The position numbers were made by a program, and so were the translations under genes. A stretch of DNA of 64,000 nucleotides, taken from NCBI GenBank assembly GCA_031261325.1, contig JAISKH010000077.1:1-64000 (forward strand), read 5' to 3'. The notes beneath the pieces are model-generated. The model searched no databases, was not told where the DNA came from, and saw only the letters and a list, made by a program, of their open reading frames with translations. Shown piece after piece: positions 4,257 through 54,532 of the stretch (within the stretch, counting starts at the first letter, position 1; each line of letters starts with the position of its first letter). Origin of the DNA: Oscillospiraceae bacterium. Lineage in GTDB: Bacteria > Bacillota > Clostridia > Oscillospirales > Oscillospiraceae.

Positions 4257-5345
4257 TTAGAGCAGCTTGCGCAGCTTCCCGATTCCGAGCAGCGCGAGCG
4301 GCACGCCGAAGCCGAACACGGTATTCAGCGTGTAGCACAGAATACTGGAGGAATACGCCTCAAGCTCGAAGCGACCGACGGCGAGGTATATGCCGCCGAT
4401 GTAGCCGAGGAACACAACGGGCGTCGCGTAATGCTTTGGCTCGGTCACGCGGAACAGGCTCTTCAGAATGTTGACGATAATCAGGGCGAACGCCACAATC
4501 AGTATAAAGTCCGCGACGACCCAAATGGCGAGCACCGCAGTCTCAAGTCTGTCGAACGATTGCAGGACGTTTACGAGCTTCATCGCGCTGAAGAACGGCA
4601 TCGGCATACGCCCCGTCGTGCGATACCCGAGCGAGCCGACAACGCAGACGACGGTCATTGTCGATATGATGAACAGGAAGATAACGAGTTTTTTGGATTT
4701 TAAGAAGAGCTTTTCCTTGTCGGAAATCTGTGCGCCGAGGAAGAAGAACGGCGTTAAATAGCCGAAAATACTGACGACGGGAAACGCCGACTTGAGCGCG
4801 GGAAACGCGTCAAGATACGTTACGGGCAGCATGTTGCGCGGCTTGATTGTCGGAATGAGGAACACGAAGAAGATAAGAAACGTGACGATGAAGATGATAA
4901 ACGCAATCTCCGCTAACCGCGCGAACGCCTCCAACCGACCGTGCGCCGCGATAAACACTAGAATCATCATCGACACGATGAAATACCTGATGTTAACGTA
5001 GGGGAAAATGGTTGACATCGGGCGTTCGGCGTAGTACCGAATGTAAAGCAGGAACAGCAGCGTCGCCCACAGGAGGTACAATGTCAGCAGGACTTTACTG
5101 ACCACCTTGCCCGTGAGCTTTTCAAACACGTCGCCCAAGTCCCGAAACTTGCCGCTTTTGAATATCGCGGTCAGCACGCAGGTCAGCAGTACGAGACAAG
5201 CGGTGGCGATTATCGGTCCGACCCAAGCGGCGGTCTTGCCGAACTGCGCGCACGACGTCGGGAACACGCGTATCGTCGGCGACAGGGTTATGACGATAAA
5301 CATGATGAATATCTGCCGCACGGATATTTTGTTGTTTTTTGTCAA
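4257..5345 (-). CDS. GerAB-type spore germination permease subunit
   Basis: A 362-residue integral membrane protein of the spore permease (GerAB/YndE) family, a branch of the APC transporter superfamily. In Bacillus the B subunit sits in the spore inner membrane and binds the germinant with the A and C subunits. About ten hydrophobic helices are visible, starting with IFIMFIVITLSP near residues 11-22. It is the last gene of the operon A-C-D-B, 12 nt after the small D gene, and is followed by a terminator. The germinant cannot be deduced. Confidence 0.88.
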   Translation of the reverse strand: MTKNNKISVRQIFIMFIVITLSPTIRVFPTSCAQFGKTAAWVGPIIATACLVLLTCVLTAIFKSGKFRDLGDVFEKLTGKVVSKVLLTLYLLWATLLFLLYIRYYAERPMSTIFPYVNIRYFIVSMMILVFIAAHGRLEAFARLAEIAFIIFIVTFLIFFVFLIPTIKPRNMLPVTYLDAFPALKSAFPVVSIFGYLTPFFFLGAQISDKEKLFLKSKKLVIFLFIISTMTVVCVVGSLGYRTTGRMPMPFFSAMKLVNVLQSFDRLETAVLAIWVVADFILIVAFALIIVNILKSLFRVTEPKHYATPVVFLGYIGGIYLAVGRFELEAYSSSILCYTLNTVFGFGVPLALLGIGKLRKLL

Positions 5346-26357: not shown

Positions 26358-27092
26358 ATGGAAATCTGGGGTGTAACCGACAAGGGCAAGGTACGTGCGA
26401 TGAATCAGGACGTATTTATGACCATGCGGTGCGAGGAACGGGAGGTCGCCGTGCTCGTCGTTTGTGACGGCATGGGCGGCGCGCGCAGCGGCGACGTGGC
26501 TAGCTTCGTCGCGACCGAGCGGTTCATGGCGGTGGTGCGCGAGTATATCGACATGGATTACGGGTTGGACGAGATAGCCGAGCGACTGCCGGACGCGGCT
26601 TTGCAGGCGAATACAGCCGTGTATGAGCGCAGTCTGCGCGACCCCGGCTGCGCGGGCATGGGCACGACGCTCGTCGCGGCGGCGGTCATGGAAAACGGCG
26701 AGGCGATAGTCAACATCGGCGACAGCCGCGCCTACCATATTGCGGACGGCTCAATTCGCCGCGTCACGCGGGACCATTCGGTCGTTGAGGAAATGGTTGA
26801 GCGCGGCGACATTACGCGCGAACAGGCGCGAACGCATTCAAGCCGCAATCTTATCACGCGGTCGCTCGGTTCGCCGAGCGGGGACGCAGCCGACGTGTTT
26901 TTGCTTGCCTTAAAGCAAGGCGAGTACATACTCCTGTGCTCGGACGGATTGTCAAACGTCGTGACCGACGAGGAGATTCAGCGCGAGGTTACGAGCGGAA
27001 GCGACGTTAAGGCGATATGCGACAGTCTGCTTGAGCTTGCCCTGTTGCGCGGCGCGCCCGACAACGTGACGGTTGTGCTGCTTAAGAAGTAA
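26358..27092 (+). CDS. prpC: PP2C-type serine/threonine phosphatase PrpC/Stp
   Basis: A 244-residue metal-dependent PPM phosphatase, partner of the PASTA kinase next door. Metal-binding Asp residues are seen in NQD (18) and CDGMGG (37), with GDSRAY further on and the C-terminal CSDGLSN and GAPDNVTVV motifs. It reverses PrkC phosphorylation of translation and wall targets. It is 75 nt after rlmN and 59 nt before prkC, a standard pair. Confidence 0.95.
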   Translation: MEIWGVTDKGKVRAMNQDVFMTMRCEEREVAVLVVCDGMGGARSGDVASFVATERFMAVVREYIDMDYGLDEIAERLPDAALQANTAVYERSLRDPGCAGMGTTLVAAAVMENGEAIVNIGDSRAYHIADGSIRRVTRDHSVVEEMVERGDITREQARTHSSRNLITRSLGSPSGDAADVFLLALKQGEYILLCSDGLSNVVTDEEIQREVTSGSDVKAICDSLLELALLRGAPDNVTVVLLKK

Positions 27093-27151
27093 ACGATAAC
27101 TAACTTGCCCGGATTGACAGAACACAATTGAACCCCGGGGGGAGGATATAT

Positions 27152-29185
27152 ATGGACAGCTCCGATAAATATATTGGCATGATACTCGACAACAGGTACG
27201 AAATACTCGAAAAAATCGGCACGGGCGGCATGGCATACGTCTATAAGGCGCGGTGCCACAGGCTGAACCGTCTTGTCGCCGTGAAGATTCTCAAGGAGGA
27301 TTTCACGGGCGACGAGGAGTTCCGCCGCAGGTTCCACGCCGAGTCGCAGGCGGTTGCGATGCTGTCGCACCCGAATATCGTTGCGGTGTACGACGTGTCG
27401 CGCACGAACAACATCGAGTATATCGTCATGGAACTGATTGAGGGCATAACCCTCAAGCAATACATTAACCGCAAGGGTCTGCTGAACTGGAAGGAAACCC
27501 TGCACTTTGCGACGCAAATAACCAAGGGGTTGCAGCACGCGCACTCAAAGGGTATCATTCACCGCGACATTAAGCCGCACAATATCATGATATTGAAGGA
27601 CGGCAGCGTTAAGGTCGCGGATTTCGGTATCGCCCGCGTCGTCAACGCTTCCAACACGCAGACGCGTGATTCGTTCGGCTCCGTGCACTATATTTCGCCC
27701 GAGCAGGCAAAGGGCGGTTACATTGACGCGCGGAGCGACCTTTACTCCGTCGGCGTTGTGATGTACGAGATGCTGACAAGTCAGCTGCCGTTCGTGGGCG
27801 ATTCGCCCGTTTCCATTGCGTTGCAGCACATTAACGCCGTGCCGCTCATGCCGCGCGATATTATATCCGACATTCCCGAGGGGCTTGAGGACATCACGAT
27901 GCACGCGATGGAGCCGGACGTTAACCTGCGCTACGCGACGGCGGACAAAATGCTCGCGGACCTCGATAAATTCCGCAAGAACCCCGCCGTGACGTTTGAC
28001 TATAACAGCTCAACGCCGACGGTCGTCTCCGCGGACGACACAAAGCCCGTGCCCGTCTCGCCCGCGATTAAGGAAGCGGAGCCGCCCAAGAAGCCGCGCG
28101 CGGTCAAACGCGCCGACGCGCCGAGCCGCAATACGAGCAGCCGCGCTTCAAGCTCCGAGCGCGCGGAAACGCGCAGTAACCGCCAGCGCGTAAGCCGAAC
28201 GGTGTTCCTTGTCGGACTTGCGCTCGCGGGAGTATTCGCGGTTATCGCGCTCGTATTCCTGCTGCAAAAGGTGGGCGATATTATCATTCCGCCCGAGGAA
28301 ACGACGCTAACGGTGCCGAAATTCGTGGGAATGCAGTACACGAGAGTGCGAGACGACGCGGAATTTGCGATTTATTATGACTTCAGGGTGACGGAGACGT
28401 ATAACGCGACAGTGCCTGAGGGCGAGATTATTACGCAGTCGCCGCCCGCGAACAAGCCCGTCAAGATTCCGCCGACGAATGAGTCGATTATCGTTGACCT
28501 TACTGTGTCGCTCGGCAAGCAACCGCCCCTGCGAATGCCCGACGTTATAAACCTCGATTATCGCGAGGCGCGGCGCATTATCGAATCGCTTGACCCGACG
28601 CTGCATATTGACATGGAGGGCGTCGCGGACGCGAATGTGACGCAGGACTATGTTATCGAGACAATCCCCTCCGAAAACAAGGATTTGATACCGGGCACGA
28701 CTGTCTACATCAAGTACTCGAAAGGACCGGAGATTAAGCTTGTCGAGGTGCCCGACGTTACGGGACTGCTGCTGTCACAGGCGCAGCTTGAGCTTGAGAG
28801 CCGCAACCTGACGTTCCTGCCCGAGTACGTGGACGATGAAGCGCCGAAGGATACTGTCGTATTCCAGACGCTGAAAAACGAGATGATGCCCGAGCACACG
28901 GAAATAAAGCTCCAGGTGTCCAACGGACCGAAGGAGTCCCCGTCGCCGGAGCCTACGCCGTCCCCGTCCCCGACTCCGACCCCGACTGCAACGCCGTATC
29001 CGTCGCCGTCGCCCATAGCGTCGCCGTCATACGCGCCGCCGGAGCCGAGCGATTATCCGCAATATCCCCAATATCCGCAGTACCCGCAATACCCGCAGTA
29101 CCCGTCATACGCGCCGCCGGAGCCGTCCGAGCCGCCGCCAAGCGCGGACCCCGACGACTGGTGGAGCGCGGGAGCCACGGATTGA
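27152..29185 (+). CDS. prkC: PASTA-domain serine/threonine kinase PrkC with repeat-rich tail
   Basis: A 677-residue membrane kinase. The cytoplasmic kinase domain (about 16-280) has the glycine loop GTGGMAYV, Lys45, HRDIKPHN around 137-144 and DFG at 157-159. A juxtamembrane linker leads to a transmembrane helix (about 349-371), then three extracellular PASTA domains (roughly 385-455, 456-530, 531-595) that bind muropeptide or lipid II. The rest is unusual: Pro/Ser/Thr repeats, then PQY units in tandem, ending Asp-Asp-Trp-Trp. In Bacillus PrkC triggers germination by peptidoglycan fragments. ATG at 27152 follows GGGGGGAGG. The stop overlaps rsgA by 4 nt. Confidence 0.95.
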   Translation: MDSSDKYIGMILDNRYEILEKIGTGGMAYVYKARCHRLNRLVAVKILKEDFTGDEEFRRRFHAESQAVAMLSHPNIVAVYDVSRTNNIEYIVMELIEGITLKQYINRKGLLNWKETLHFATQITKGLQHAHSKGIIHRDIKPHNIMILKDGSVKVADFGIARVVNASNTQTRDSFGSVHYISPEQAKGGYIDARSDLYSVGVVMYEMLTSQLPFVGDSPVSIALQHINAVPLMPRDIISDIPEGLEDITMHAMEPDVNLRYATADKMLADLDKFRKNPAVTFDYNSSTPTVVSADDTKPVPVSPAIKEAEPPKKPRAVKRADAPSRNTSSRASSSERAETRSNRQRVSRTVFLVGLALAGVFAVIALVFLLQKVGDIIIPPEETTLTVPKFVGMQYTRVRDDAEFAIYYDFRVTETYNATVPEGEIITQSPPANKPVKIPPTNESIIVDLTVSLGKQPPLRMPDVINLDYREARRIIESLDPTLHIDMEGVADANVTQDYVIETIPSENKDLIPGTTVYIKYSKGPEIKLVEVPDVTGLLLSQAQLELESRNLTFLPEYVDDEAPKDTVVFQTLKNEMMPEHTEIKLQVSNGPKESPSPEPTPSPSPTPTPTATPYPSPSPIASPSYAPPEPSDYPQYPQYPQYPQYPQYPSYAPPEPSEPPPSADPDDWWSAGATD

Positions 29186-30105
29186 GCGCGGAGGGCATAA
29201 TCTTCAAAGCACTCGGCGGTTTCTACTACGTCGAAACAGGCGAGGGGCTTGTTGAGTGCCGCGCGCGCGGTAGATTCCGCAAGGCGGGCGAGCTTACGCC
29301 GCTTGTGGGCGACCGCGTGGCGATTGACCTGCAAACGGACGGGAGCGGCTATGTGGTCGAGATTCGTCCGCGCCGCAACGCGTTTGTCCGCCCGCAAATA
29401 GCGAATATTGACGCAATGGTGATTGTAATTTCGGCGGCTATCCCCGTCTGCGACCCGTATCTCGTTGACCGCATGACGGCTATTGCCGCGCGCAACGACT
29501 GCGAGCCGATAATTTGCATCAACAAGTGCGACATGGACGCGGCTGATGAGCTGTTTGAGATTTACACGACGGCGGGCTTCGTAACTCTGCGTGTCAGCGC
29601 GGAGACGGGCGAGGGCATAGCCGAGCTGTCGGACGCGTTGCGCGGCAGGTTGTGCGCATTCACGGGCAACACAGGCGTCGGCAAGTCCAGCGTGCTGAAC
29701 GCGCTCGGCAGCGACATCGACGCGCAGGAGCCGGGAGAGGACGCGCATGACTTCGCGATACCCGTCGGCGAGGTGAGCGAAAAGCTCGGGCGCGGGCGGC
29801 ATACGACGCGCCATGTCGAGCTGTTCAAGCTGCCTTTCGGAACGGTGATTGCGGATACGCCCGGGTTCTCGTCGTTTGACACGGCGATGATGGAGCGCAT
29901 CGCGCCCGAGGAGGTGCAACTCGCGTTCCCGGACTTTGCGCCGTACCGTGAGCTGTGCCGATTTCAGGACTGTATCCACGTCAAGGAACCGGGGTGCGCC
30001 GTGCTTGACGCGGTGGCGGAGGGGCAAGTGCACCCGTCGCGGCACGCGAGCTATGCGCTGATGGTGGAAGCAGCCAAACGCGCCAAAGCTCGGGAATATA
30101 AGTAA
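29182..30105 (+). CDS. rsgA: Ribosome small-subunit GTPase RsgA
   Basis: A 307-residue circularly permuted GTPase that assists 30S maturation. The OB fold (about 1-70) is followed by the permuted G domain: NKCD first, then GNTGVGKSSVLNAL, then DTPGFSSF. A C-terminal zinc site includes CRFQDCIHVKEPGC. The TTG at 29182 is taken as start because the family begins near this AEGIIFKALGGFYYV block, and GGGAG lies 8 nt upstream; the coding overlap with prkC supports coupling. Confidence 0.95.
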   Translation: MSAEGIIFKALGGFYYVETGEGLVECRARGRFRKAGELTPLVGDRVAIDLQTDGSGYVVEIRPRRNAFVRPQIANIDAMVIVISAAIPVCDPYLVDRMTAIAARNDCEPIICINKCDMDAADELFEIYTTAGFVTLRVSAETGEGIAELSDALRGRLCAFTGNTGVGKSSVLNALGSDIDAQEPGEDAHDFAIPVGEVSEKLGRGRHTTRHVELFKLPFGTVIADTPGFSSFDTAMMERIAPEEVQLAFPDFAPYRELCRFQDCIHVKEPGCAVLDAVAEGQVHPSRHASYALMVEAAKRAKAREYK

Positions 30106-30107
30106 AT

Positions 30108-30134
30108 ACCCTGCCGATTGGCAGGGTTTTCCTT
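30108..30134 (+). terminator. Intrinsic terminator after rsgA
   Basis: ACCCTGCC-GATT-GGCAGGGT is a perfect 8-bp stem with a 4-nt loop followed by TTTCCTT, 2 nt past the rsgA stop. It closes the long plus-strand operon. Confidence 0.85.
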
Positions 30135-30269
30135 ATTCCCCTGCGTCTTGCCGCTCATTATTCTCCCGTCCCGCCGCGCGGTACCTCTTGCGCGTAACGC
30201 CGCGCTTGCTGTTTTAGTCGTTTGACTATTTTTCAATCTCAAAGGAGATTCGCTTGTCCTACGCGGACG

Positions 30270-30345
30270 GCGCCCCCTTTCCAACGCGGGAAAGGGGGGA
30301 AAGCGCGCTTAAGAGGGGCTGCCGCCCCTCTTAAGAATTACCCCG
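30270..30345. repeat. Palindromic repeat, left copy
   Basis: Two stacked hairpins: CCCCCTTTCC...GGAAAGGGGGG (30272-30299 region) and CTTAAGAGGGG-CTGCCG-CCCCTCTTAAG (30308-30335 region), joined by AAAGCGCG. The reverse complement of the right copy (30538-30617) matches it closely across both hairpins. This is an extragenic palindrome or one arm of a MITE-like element. Confidence 0.75.
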
Positions 30346-30537
30346 CTCTCAGAGCACTCCAGTCTCCAGTCGCTATCGCAAATCAGGTCACTCATTACGC
30401 GGCACAAGACAACACTCTAGTGCAAGCTCGCTTCGCGAAGCTGACAGCGTTGCAACGCACATGTCCTTGCCAAGTGGCAGCTTGCAACCCGAGCGTTAAC
30501 TTCTAGCCCGTAACGCCGCAATCGGTTTGCGCCTAGC

Positions 30538-30617
30538 TGTGGGGGTGATTTTTAAGAGGGGGTTTACCCCCTCTTAAATGCGCTTTCCCCCCTTTCTCGC
30601 ATAAGAAAGGGGGCCCC
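30538..30617. repeat. Palindromic repeat, right inverted copy
   Basis: Again two hairpins, TTTAAGAGGGGG-TTTA-CCCCCTCTTAAA (30551-30578) and CCCCCCTTTCT...AGAAAGGGGG (30587-30613), in the opposite order and orientation to the left copy. The two arms enclose about 190 bp. The copies differ at several positions and in loop sequence, so neither is a recent exact duplicate. Confidence 0.75.
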
Positions 30618-30750
30618 GCGCGGGTAGCGCAAGGAATTAGGTAAACTAATTTATAGATGATAACAGATATGGAACGGCAGAGCGCGACGCATGACGAAGG
30701 ACGAAAGCGTTGCTGCGGCAAGACGCGGAGAATAAGGAGAAAATGTCTGA

Positions 30751-30780
30751 TTGCACTTTTCGCCAAGTATTGCATATAGT
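30751..30780 (+). promoter_or_regulatory. Candidate promoter of small-protein/spoVM unit
   Basis: TTGCAC (30751-30756) and TATAGT (30775-30780), 18-nt spacer, could serve sigma-A. The same place also reads CATATAGT (30773-30780), like a sigma-E -10 element, which would fit spoVM control in Bacillus; the matching -35 is not clear. Neither reading is decisive. Confidence 0.3.
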
Positions 30781-30814
30781 GTAATAAGAAAGAGTGCGAG
30801 GAGTGATATGGCTT

Positions 30815-30967
30815 ATGCGGCGTTACCGCAAATGCGGCGGGACTGCCATGGTGATAATCGGAATCCTGATACTGGCTTCGCTGATATTGCCGGCGGTGTG
30901 CTGGTGGCTGGTTCTGGGTCTCGCGCTGATTATCGGCGGCATTTCGCTTAAAAACAAGAAATATTAG
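30815..30967 (+). CDS. Small membrane protein upstream of spoVM
   Basis: A 50-residue protein beginning MRRYRKCGGTAMVIIGILIL with two hydrophobic segments (about 11-25 and 27-44) separated by a short PAVCWW turn and ending in Lys/Tyr. AGGAG lies 11 nt upstream of this ATG, slightly long; an in-frame GTG at 30803 and ATG at 30848 are alternatives. A second ORF in another frame (ATG 30808) encodes a polar peptide with no feature and is less likely. It ends 13 nt before spoVM. Similar tiny membrane proteins are known beside spoVM in Clostridia, from general recollection; function unknown. Confidence 0.6.
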   Translation: MRRYRKCGGTAMVIIGILILASLILPAVCWWLVLGLALIIGGISLKNKKY

Positions 30968-30980
30968 GCAGGTGAAGCAT

Positions 30981-31049
30981 ATGAAAGTTATCGTCGTCCG
31001 ACCACCGAAATTCATCAGACGCTTTTTGCGCGCGCTTTTCAGGCGGTAG
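30981..31049 (+). CDS. spoVM: SpoVM-like spore coat anchoring peptide
   Basis: A 22-residue ORF encoding MKVIVVRPPKFIRRFLRALF plus two Arg. Bacillus SpoVM is a 26-residue amphipathic helix that senses the convex forespore membrane and anchors SpoIVA at the coat base; its Pro9-Lys10-Phe11 are matched here at identical positions, and the short hydrophobic start and basic amphipathic C-terminal half agree. GGTGA lies 5 nt before the ATG. The location, after the prpC-prkC-rsgA run, is where spoVM sits in Bacillus and many Clostridia. It is too short for ordinary gene callers. The next gene is a SipL-like coat protein, which supports the call. Confidence 0.82.
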   Translation: MKVIVVRPPKFIRRFLRALFRR

Positions 31050-31073
31050 CCGAGAATACAGCGAATCGGCGGC

Positions 31074-31100
31074 ATAACCCGTCCGCTCTTAACATATATT
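31074..31100 (+). promoter_or_regulatory. Candidate sigma-E promoter of sipL-like gene
   Basis: ATA (31074-31076), 16-nt spacer, CATATATT (31093-31100) agrees with the mother-cell sigma-E pattern ATA-N16-CATAnAnT. It lies 34 nt upstream of the ATG. Clostridial sipL is under sigma-E, so the match is plausible, but the -35 element is short and could be chance. Confidence 0.4.
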
Positions 31101-31134: not shown

Positions 31135-32673
31135 ATGGACATAAATCTTGAACACGATAAGGTCAGGTTCGCCAAAAACGTGCTCGCCGCACGCGTGCCG
31201 CGAGAGGAAACCGCGGACGTAATTGTGCCGGACTCGCTGCCGGACATCGCGCGAATTATCGACACGGACGCGAACGTGCTCGTGCGCGGCAAGGACAGCG
31301 AAAACGGGCGAGTCACCGTCTCGGGCATCGTATCCGCGACGGTCGTTTACGTGCCTGACGGTTCGGAGACGCTGCGGCGCGTCGCCGTCGAGCTGCCGTT
31401 TGAGGTCGCGGCGGCGGGGACGGAGGTTGCGCAGGCGACGCGCGTCGTCGCGCGGGTCAACCTGTCGTCGGCGGACGCGATTGTGGTCAACCCGCGCAAA
31501 ATCTCCGTCCGCGCGGAGCTTATCGCGGATATTACGGGCTATAACGACGCGGAGCTTGCGTTGCCCGTCGGGTTCAAGGACGGCGCGGAGCCGACGGAGA
31601 GCGGAACGCAGCTGCTGAAAGACACGTTTTCGTTCCACGCGGCGACAGACGTGCGCGAAAAGACGTTCTCGGTCACGGACGAATACGCAATCCCGAACAC
31701 GTCGCCCGCGGCGGCGGAGCTGCTTCGCGCGAACGTGACGCTCACCCCCGACGAGAGCAAGCTCGTCGGCAACAAGCTCATTTTCAAGGGCGCGGCGAAC
31801 GTGCGCGCGCTTTACGCGAGGGTGGATAATAACGAGCCGATGGAGACGGAGTTCAAGTTAGATTTTTCGCAGATTATGGAGCTTGAAAACGCCGCCGCTG
31901 ACGACACGTTTGAGCTTGTACCGCAGCTCACGGGCGCGTACTTCGACCTCGGCGGGGAGAACGAGACGGGGCGCGTGATTACGGCGGAGCTGCACGCGGT
32001 TGCGCAATGCGTCGCGACTGGGAAAAAGACCGTGCCGTTCCTGACGGACGCTTACAGCACGAGGTTTGAGCTTGCGCCACGGCGTGACTTCGTTTCGGTT
32101 GAGGACAACGCGCCCGCTGGACGGTTCGGCGCGGTGCTGCGGGCGAATCTTGTAACGCCGCCGGGCGTTGCGCGCGTAGTATCCGTGACCGCGCGTGCGG
32201 GCAACGTGACGAACGCATACGAGGACAATACCGCGACTCTGCGCTGCCCCGTGAACGTCTCCGCCGTGTACGTTAACAGCGACGGGCAAGTGCAGTCCGC
32301 GAACGGACGGTTCGAGGCGGAGCTGAACGCGAACGGCGCGAATGTCAACGCGCGCGCCGAGTGCGGCGGCGAGGTCTATGCCGTTGCGGCGGAGGGCGGT
32401 ATTGAGGTGCGCGTACCCGTTGAGTTTACGGCGCATGAGGTAAGCAGGCTTGAGGTCTCGCCGATTTCGGGGCTGTCGTATGACGAGGAAACGCCGACCG
32501 ACACGAAAGCTCTGCCGTCGCTCGTGCTCGCGCGCGCGAATGAGGGCGAGACGTTGTGGCAGCTCGCGAAAAAGCACCGCTCCACAACGGAGCTAATCCG
32601 CGAAGCAAACGACATGGAAGAGAACGACGCGCCCGCAAGCGGGAAGTTCCTTGTGATACCGAAGAAACGATAA
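31135..32673 (+). CDS. sipL: SipL-like spore morphogenetic protein (DUF3794 + LysM)
   Basis: A 512-residue protein with repeated DUF3794 domains (N-terminal about 20-140, further copies about 170-300 and 320-430) and a C-terminal LysM domain (about 465-512, with GETLWQLAKKHRST). This architecture and length match SipL of Clostridioides difficile, which binds SpoIVA through LysM and is needed for coat attachment. The protein has no signal peptide, as expected for a mother-cell cytoplasmic protein. ATG at 31135 is used, with AAGGAG 11 nt upstream. Its position 86 nt after spoVM groups coat-base proteins. Other DUF3794-LysM paralogues exist in Clostridia, so orthology is likely, not certain. Confidence 0.8.
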   Translation: MDINLEHDKVRFAKNVLAARVPREETADVIVPDSLPDIARIIDTDANVLVRGKDSENGRVTVSGIVSATVVYVPDGSETLRRVAVELPFEVAAAGTEVAQATRVVARVNLSSADAIVVNPRKISVRAELIADITGYNDAELALPVGFKDGAEPTESGTQLLKDTFSFHAATDVREKTFSVTDEYAIPNTSPAAAELLRANVTLTPDESKLVGNKLIFKGAANVRALYARVDNNEPMETEFKLDFSQIMELENAAADDTFELVPQLTGAYFDLGGENETGRVITAELHAVAQCVATGKKTVPFLTDAYSTRFELAPRRDFVSVEDNAPAGRFGAVLRANLVTPPGVARVVSVTARAGNVTNAYEDNTATLRCPVNVSAVYVNSDGQVQSANGRFEAELNANGANVNARAECGGEVYAVAAEGGIEVRVPVEFTAHEVSRLEVSPISGLSYDEETPTDTKALPSLVLARANEGETLWQLAKKHRSTTELIREANDMEENDAPASGKFLVIPKKR

Positions 32674-54208: not shown

Positions 54209-54295
54209 CCGATTTCCTGCGCAGTAACACACTCCCGCATACAGCGAGAGCGCAAGAACCCCATATCGTCAAAATCCGTGGCGTGAGGTCAATGT

Positions 54296-54490
54296 CTAAA
54301 GCAGGTATTCCGGCTTGCGTGACCGAAGATAATCCCGGGTATTATCTCCTTGCGCGCTGTTCACCTTCCCAATAATAATCAGTGGCGTAACGAACAGCGC
54401 CTCGCGCTTACGGCGGCGGGACCGCGCGGGCATTTCACCCGCTTCCCTCTTAGCCGCCGCATATATACGCAACCGTACACACGCGGCGGA
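54296..54490 (-). promoter_or_regulatory. Cobalamin riboswitch
   Basis: Read on the minus strand, the leader contains the conserved B12-element blocks in order: GGTT near the 5' side, GGGAAGCGGGTGAAA, then CCCGCCGCCGTAAG, the B12-box GCCACTG, TTGGGAAGGTG, and the closing GCCGGAATACCTGC. The layout fits an adenosylcobalamin-type aptamer. It lies between a sigma-A promoter and a terminator that precedes cbiM, so corrinoid should repress the whole operon by attenuation. Confidence 0.95.
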
Positions 54491-54532
54491 ACTCCGACAT
54501 TTATTCAATTATTTGCAATTTTCTCGAGGGTT

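Follow-up and report, generated by a model that had tools for sequence, protein, structure and literature searches.

Evidence for a 22-codon spoVM gene paired with a membrane mini-protein gene upstream of sipL in an Oscillospiraceae genome

SpoVM is the textbook example of a peptide that locates itself by membrane curvature, and it is hard to find in many clostridia. The window analyzed here, i.e., the whole 64,000-nucleotide stretch of DNA from an Oscillospiraceae bacterium, carries a 22-codon open reading frame (ORF) ahead of sipL, and the question is whether this ORF is the genome's spoVM and what its peptide would still contribute to the spore coat. The available parts of two studies describe SpoVM as embedding in the mother-cell-derived forespore membrane, where it binds and recruits SpoIVA, and Pro9 as required for its recognition of positive curvature (PMC5607322, PMC4307972). 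In C. difficile, according to the available part of the former study, spoVM, spoIVA, and sipL are sigma-E genes, SipL binds SpoIVA through its LysM domain, and SpoVM is largely dispensable, the authors considering a redundant factor (PMC5607322). Galperin et al. (2012), in the portion available, asked whether distant versions of SpoVM exist where searches failed, Thermoanaerobacter and Clostridium phytofermentans being examples of clostridia listed there with no SpoVM detected (PMC3533761).

To establish the identity of the ORF, its product was compared with profiles and relatives. NCBIfam SpoVM_broad matched it with E = 0.011 and 15.7 bits, residues 1-21 falling on model positions 1-21 of 26; this lies under the NCBI naming cut-off of 31 bits, which is an annotation threshold and not a biological feature. 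A Pfam search of the peptide gave no match. Among 60 genomes (own included), the SpoVM model found matches at E ≤ 10 in 42 and matches above the cut-off in only 8. Since the cut-off misses most members of the group, we filed the peptide as SpoVM despite its low score; routine annotation may overlook the gene, since it scores below that threshold, and its description as unannotated is plausible. With the window peptide as query, 30 of the 60 genomes gave matches. From the hits of both searches, together with ORFs adjoining sipL, we gathered 35 SpoVM-like peptides, of which the NCBIfam model matches 30 at E ≤ 10. In the alignment with relatives that the sequence-only reading of this DNA had proposed, the 35 peptides align almost gap-free over the first 20 positions, and M1, P9, L16, and F20, each kept in at least 90% of them, are all present in the window peptide.

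A position matrix built from 34 relatives, the window peptide left out, gave that peptide 48.8 bits; of the 3492 starts in the window, the runner-up had 7.1 bits, and the best of 25,267 Markov-random starts had 7.6 bits. Some of the 35 relatives had been found via the window peptide itself, and a matrix from the 24 relatives found by the SpoVM model itself gave 43.5 vs. 6.9 bits, and one from the 8 relatives above the NCBIfam cut-off 39.7 vs. 11.3 bits. When the whole genome was searched, a profile made without the window peptide returned it at E = 9.4e-8, and a broader profile (A7), whose model included it, at E = 7.5e-8, the second-best place reaching only E = 0.08. The sequence-only reading had named a broken ORF with another spoVM elsewhere as the case that would tell against it; searches of the genome, of which ~10% is missing, with the peptide, the SpoVM model, and A7 showed no second convincing copy. 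The match to the SpoVM profile is ungapped and includes Met1-Lys2 and Pro9, and the translation bears out the claimed positions of Met1, Lys2, Pro9, Lys10, and Phe11. The predicted ribosome-binding site is likewise in place, starting 2 nt past the stop of the preceding gene (Table 1). Profile, ribosome site, and gene order lend strong support to the proposed identity as spoVM, and by its sequence the peptide is a further member of the SpoVM family.

Table 1. Features of the spoVM neighborhood (window coordinates).
Feature	Position	Strand	Evidence or remarks
prpC, Stp1-family PP2C phosphatase	26358..27092	+	NF033484 250.3 bits, cut-off 230
prkC, Stk1-family PASTA kinase	27128..29185	+	NF033483 530.7 bits, cut-off 450
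rsgA, ribosome small subunit-dependent GTPase A	29161..30105	+	TIGR00157 190.6 bits, cut-off 100
Intergenic stretch with dispersed ~590-bp repeat, rsgA to mini-protein gene	30106..30793	.	
Gene for 50-residue hydrophobic membrane mini-protein, MRRYRKCGG...SLKNKKY	30815..30967	+	Profile A2 E = 4.6e-14 (model included the window sequence)
AGGTGA ribosome-binding site of spoVM	30970..30975	+	Direct reading; 5 nt before ATG
spoVM, 22 codons + TAG	30981..31049	+	Encodes MKVIVVRPPKFIRRFLRALFRR; NCBIfam, matrix, and profile matches
Candidate sigma-E-like promoter of sipL: GCATAAC, 14 nt, CATATATT	31072..31100	+	12/15 consensus positions
sipL, coat morphogenetic protein	31135..32673	+	Two SPOCS stretches (PF12673) + C-terminal LysM

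The ORF had been placed in the conserved slot after prpC-prkC-rsgA. These three genes do lie upstream, each above its NCBIfam cut-off, but the immediate neighbors are a mini-protein gene and sipL. Indeed, rsgA and spoVM are separated by a ~690-bp repeat-bearing stretch and the mini-protein gene, which ends 13 nt ahead of the spoVM start, and sipL follows spoVM after a gap of 88 bp. The sipL product matches PF12673 at E = 7.9e-18, above the cut-off, and LysM with 27.4 bits (cut-off 20.9). Of the 43 genomes that carry spoVM and sipL (own included), 22 have spoVM immediately upstream of sipL, and in the others the two are apart. The genome's spoIVA (G000:C40:120270-121730) lies beyond the window on the contig that carries spoVM, 88 kb away; sipL and spoIVA lie within 150 bp of each other in 12 of 17 genomes compared, which is no rate, the 17 having been picked partly for looking close. 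The sigma-E promoter consensus is KMATATT, 13-16 nt, CATACAHT. Sites with at least 13 of the 15 positions preceded sipL in 24 of 55 loci vs. 13 of 2200 shuffles, and sites with at least 12 preceded the mini-protein gene in 18 of 63 loci vs. 149 of 2520 shuffles; the window's own site before the mini-protein gene has 11/15, a score reached by 683 of 2520 shuffles (27%).

The peptide had been described as shorter and more basic than its Bacillus counterpart. Compared with B. subtilis SpoVM, a coat basement-layer anchor, it has Met1, Lys2, Pro9, Lys10, Phe11, Arg17, and Ala18 in place and shares the amphipathic helix after Pro9; it differs in having 22 residues instead of 26, Arg13-Arg14 in place of Gly-Gly, a net charge of +8 vs. 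+5, a helix moment of 0.72 vs. 0.52, and SipL as partner where B. subtilis has SpoVID. The shorter length and higher charge thus stood, but the implication that a peptide ending early is unusual was rejected, since 14 of the 37 relatives outside the genus that served for comparing length, charge, arginines, and moment have 23 residues or fewer. The count of six arginines in the last 16 residues was accurate (Arg7, 13, 14, 17, 21, and 22); six or more occur in 2 of the 37 relatives, and the net charge is equaled or exceeded in 6. A length of 22 is therefore ordinary, and the arginine content is high, not unique; replacement of lysine by arginine in a G+C-rich genome could be a partial source of it. 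The computed helix moment over residues 10-22 compares with a median of 0.62, being higher than in 31 of the 37 relatives and equaled or surpassed in 6. Since it tops those 31, the amphipathic design looks kept, and the suggestion that the shorter, more basic peptide could sense curvature differently needs qualifying.

The gene upstream of spoVM encodes a small hydrophobic protein for which no convincing Pfam or NCBIfam family was found. SdpI, LiaF-TM, and LAXTG_small_WW show a weak hydrophobic likeness to such mini-proteins (window's best E = 0.0012), with matches that are far under the cut-off and vary between members. A hydrophobic small ORF lies upstream of spoVM in 36 of 38 loci examined, G045 and G057 being the exceptions. 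Profile A2 was built from 35 mini-protein sequences, including those of the genomes G022 and G031, in which no spoVM was detected; M1, P26, and G42 are nearly invariant in it. For the mini-protein, AlphaFold2 predicts with moderate confidence a single long helix spanning residues 8-49 (mean pLDDT 76.6, pTM 0.36), and a firm two-helix topology was accordingly not upheld; the protein may form one tilted span or a hairpin.

How fixed is the pairing? Among the 60 genomes (own included), 44 have both genes, 8 the mini-protein only, 2 spoVM only, and 6 neither. In 44 of the 44 with both, the two genes share a strand and the mini-protein gene lies upstream of spoVM, 5-121 bp away, a linkage that is partly by construction, since A2 was built mostly from ORFs upstream of spoVM. 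Outside the A2 set, A2 found mini-protein genes followed by a SpoVM-like ORF in G005, G006, G007, G008, G011, G048, G054, and G056 (the G006 SpoVM with only E = 1.98, read by eye, and the G056 mini-protein with only E = 0.011), and mini-protein genes without detectable spoVM in G010, G017, G023, G028, G047, and G052. Across 398 genomes of the phylum, A2 had matches in 42 at E ≤ 0.001. In the best 30 loci, a SpoVM-like ORF comes next in 23 and is absent in 7; the 23 include 4 already seen (the window and members of the order) and 4 in which SpoVM, by eye, has a short N-terminal extension (two seen in full), and 13 further matches fall outside the count. Since paired loci also occur across the phylum, the pairing is older than the order. 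At two loci of family f94 (L187, L195; about 1650-1790 of the locus on the gene's strand), the SpoVM-like ORF is extended by MSKKKEP before the Lys-x-aromatic start, and by eye it follows the mini-protein gene and precedes a convergent rpmB-like gene. G036 has two mini-protein/SpoVM pairs (contigs C255, C30); with ~5% contamination, a second organism is possible. A set of 54 named SipL loci, mostly from Oscillospiraceae, has the mini-protein upstream of sipL in at least 34, a SpoVM-like ORF of at least 17 bits in at least 22, and both genes in at least 17, these counts being lower bounds since some loci have only a few hundred bases upstream. We found no account of a spoVM and membrane mini-protein pair in the open-access literature. 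The fixed pairing, with the erosion series that follows, is a new form of a known module.

Seven further species of the genus have a SpoVM whose hydrophobic helix is eroded, in several to a polybasic tail. The peptides encoded after the mini-protein are MIVIALPKRLSALFGRKKRGKRKK in G007, MIVIALPKGIARLLVNKKKRKKRKK in G008, MIVIVLPRRLREILQGLKRLRRAA in G011, MRFVVIRLPHFGKKKRSKRSKK in G005, MRLIVIRLPGFGKKKRTKRGKK in G006, MKIIVIFPPRPIRNALRRLRRKRK in G001, and, with a GTG start, MKVYVIMPPRAVRRFLGLFGNKHFRRG in G009. Mean hydrophobicity of residues 10-22 is -0.47 to 0.30 in these seven, 0.37 in the window peptide, and 0.69 (median) in the 37 relatives outside the genus. By this measure, no peptide of the genus is less eroded than that of the window, an intact, arginine-rich, and still strongly amphipathic SpoVM. 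The pair sits after rsgA in G007, G008, and G011, and in G001 and G009 it is separate from rsgA as well as from sipL; plain loss as the explanation for an absent sipL-linked copy in the genus was therefore rejected. G010 has the mini-protein gene with no visible spoVM, and neither gene was found in G002, G003, and G004, which are 63-80% complete.

The series extends beyond the genus. In G017, G022, G023, G028, and G031, 69-167 bp separate the mini-protein gene from the sipL that follows it, with no intervening spoVM, and the whole genome of G031 (100% complete) has no spoVM match at E ≤ 2. All eight genomes with a mini-protein and no detectable spoVM have spoIVA and sipL matches, so that SpoVM is not essential in the group; in five of the eight, the mini-protein gene is directly before sipL. 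Sporobacter termitidis DSM 10068 (L207, about 4899-4947) has a 15-codon SpoVM stub, MKILVCRRPPANKLS, after the mini-protein, its ATG overlapping the stop of the mini-protein gene. At 13 'Lapin' MAG loci, the mini-protein stands before sipL, and no SpoVM-like ORF above 15 bits was found at the locus. Summed pairwise dN/dS, a crude Nei-Gojobori sum over non-independent pairs, is 0.15 for these 'Lapin' mini-proteins, which are thus under constraint, and is 0.16 for the mini-protein and 0.08 for SpoVM in one distant genus.

Given this series, the window ORF might itself be a decaying remnant, i.e., open and no longer of consequence, an intermediate towards the eroded or lost spoVM of the genus. 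Its intermediate hydrophobicity, the bare mini-protein gene of G010, and the stub of Sporobacter fit such decay, but the near-invariant positions are all kept, the ribosome site is clean, and the strong helix moment comes with a six-residue hydrophobic face, making a remnant improbable. It is still less probable that the main target of the peptide lies elsewhere, e.g., that it is a substrate of the FtsH protease or inhibits it, instead of anchoring the coat. SpoVM has a known link to FtsH, and the polybasic variants of the genus seem ill-suited to membrane insertion; however, the peptide is linked by gene order with sipL and also, in several of the relatives, with spoIVA. A chance ORF, conceivable for 22 codons under the NCBIfam cut-off, was rejected as extremely improbable, since none of the random-sequence starts scored near the window peptide and relatives, too, have it flanked by a conserved partner and sipL.

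It is thus highly probable, as an explanation of the whole, that the ORF is the genome's spoVM with an inferred role as coat anchor, that the mini-protein probably belongs to the same layer, and that the contribution of SpoVM may be minor. By analogy with work in B. subtilis and C. difficile, the mother cell would make the peptide during sporulation, and it would lie on the outer forespore membrane, its Phe11-Ile12-Phe15-Leu16-Leu19-Phe20 face in the lipid and its arginines directed to the lipid heads. Pro9 would give it a preference for the convex forespore surface, and it would anchor SpoIVA, which in turn would carry SipL. The setting resembles that of C. difficile, in which, as far as the available part of that study goes, SpoVM occurs with SipL and SpoIVA and conserves Pro9, and SipL has the SPOCS and LysM domains also encoded downstream of the window spoVM (PMC5607322). 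As in C. difficile, the contribution of SpoVM may be minor, since its helix is eroding in several species of the genus. The linkage to spoVM and the survival beside sipL without detectable spoVM suggest that the mini-protein is probably active in the basement layer as well. On the best reading, the SpoVM encoded here works, the lineage is one that is coming to dispense with SpoVM, and an uncharacterized membrane partner may share the anchoring.

A stronger proposal, for which we consider the chances distinctly below even, is that the mini-protein is a further membrane anchor of the basement layer, as yet undescribed, made with SpoVM and able to replace it. If so, this would explain why some Oscillospiraceae retain the mini-protein and sipL while their SpoVM erodes or is lost, and the mini-protein would be a redundant factor of the type considered in the available part of the C. 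difficile SpoVM study (PMC5607322). It offers a concrete candidate for a redundant SpoIVA anchor, and the erosion series of a single genus provides a natural experiment for telling the important parts of SpoVM from the rest. The mini-protein gene could also serve as a signpost to distant versions of SpoVM, since it led to eroded forms that searches with the SpoVM model and the peptide missed or scored weakly.

The stretch between rsgA and the mini-protein gene holds a dispersed repeat with a core of ~590 bp (about 30153-30741) and inner inverted arms of 92 nt. The repeat matched no Rfam family and no phage record and has no further full copy in the window; in the whole genome it has 129 matches at E ≤ 1e-5, ~40 of them long ones at 80-90% identity. 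Since the gap between rsgA and the mini-protein gene is 60-65 bp in four relatives of the genus, the repeat was probably inserted here. An Rfam scan of the window found no RNA at the spoVM locus; a cobalamin riboswitch (85.3 bits) lies at 54283-54492 on the minus strand. From just past sipL, a long run of minus-strand ORFs, mostly end to end, occupies 32715-53034.
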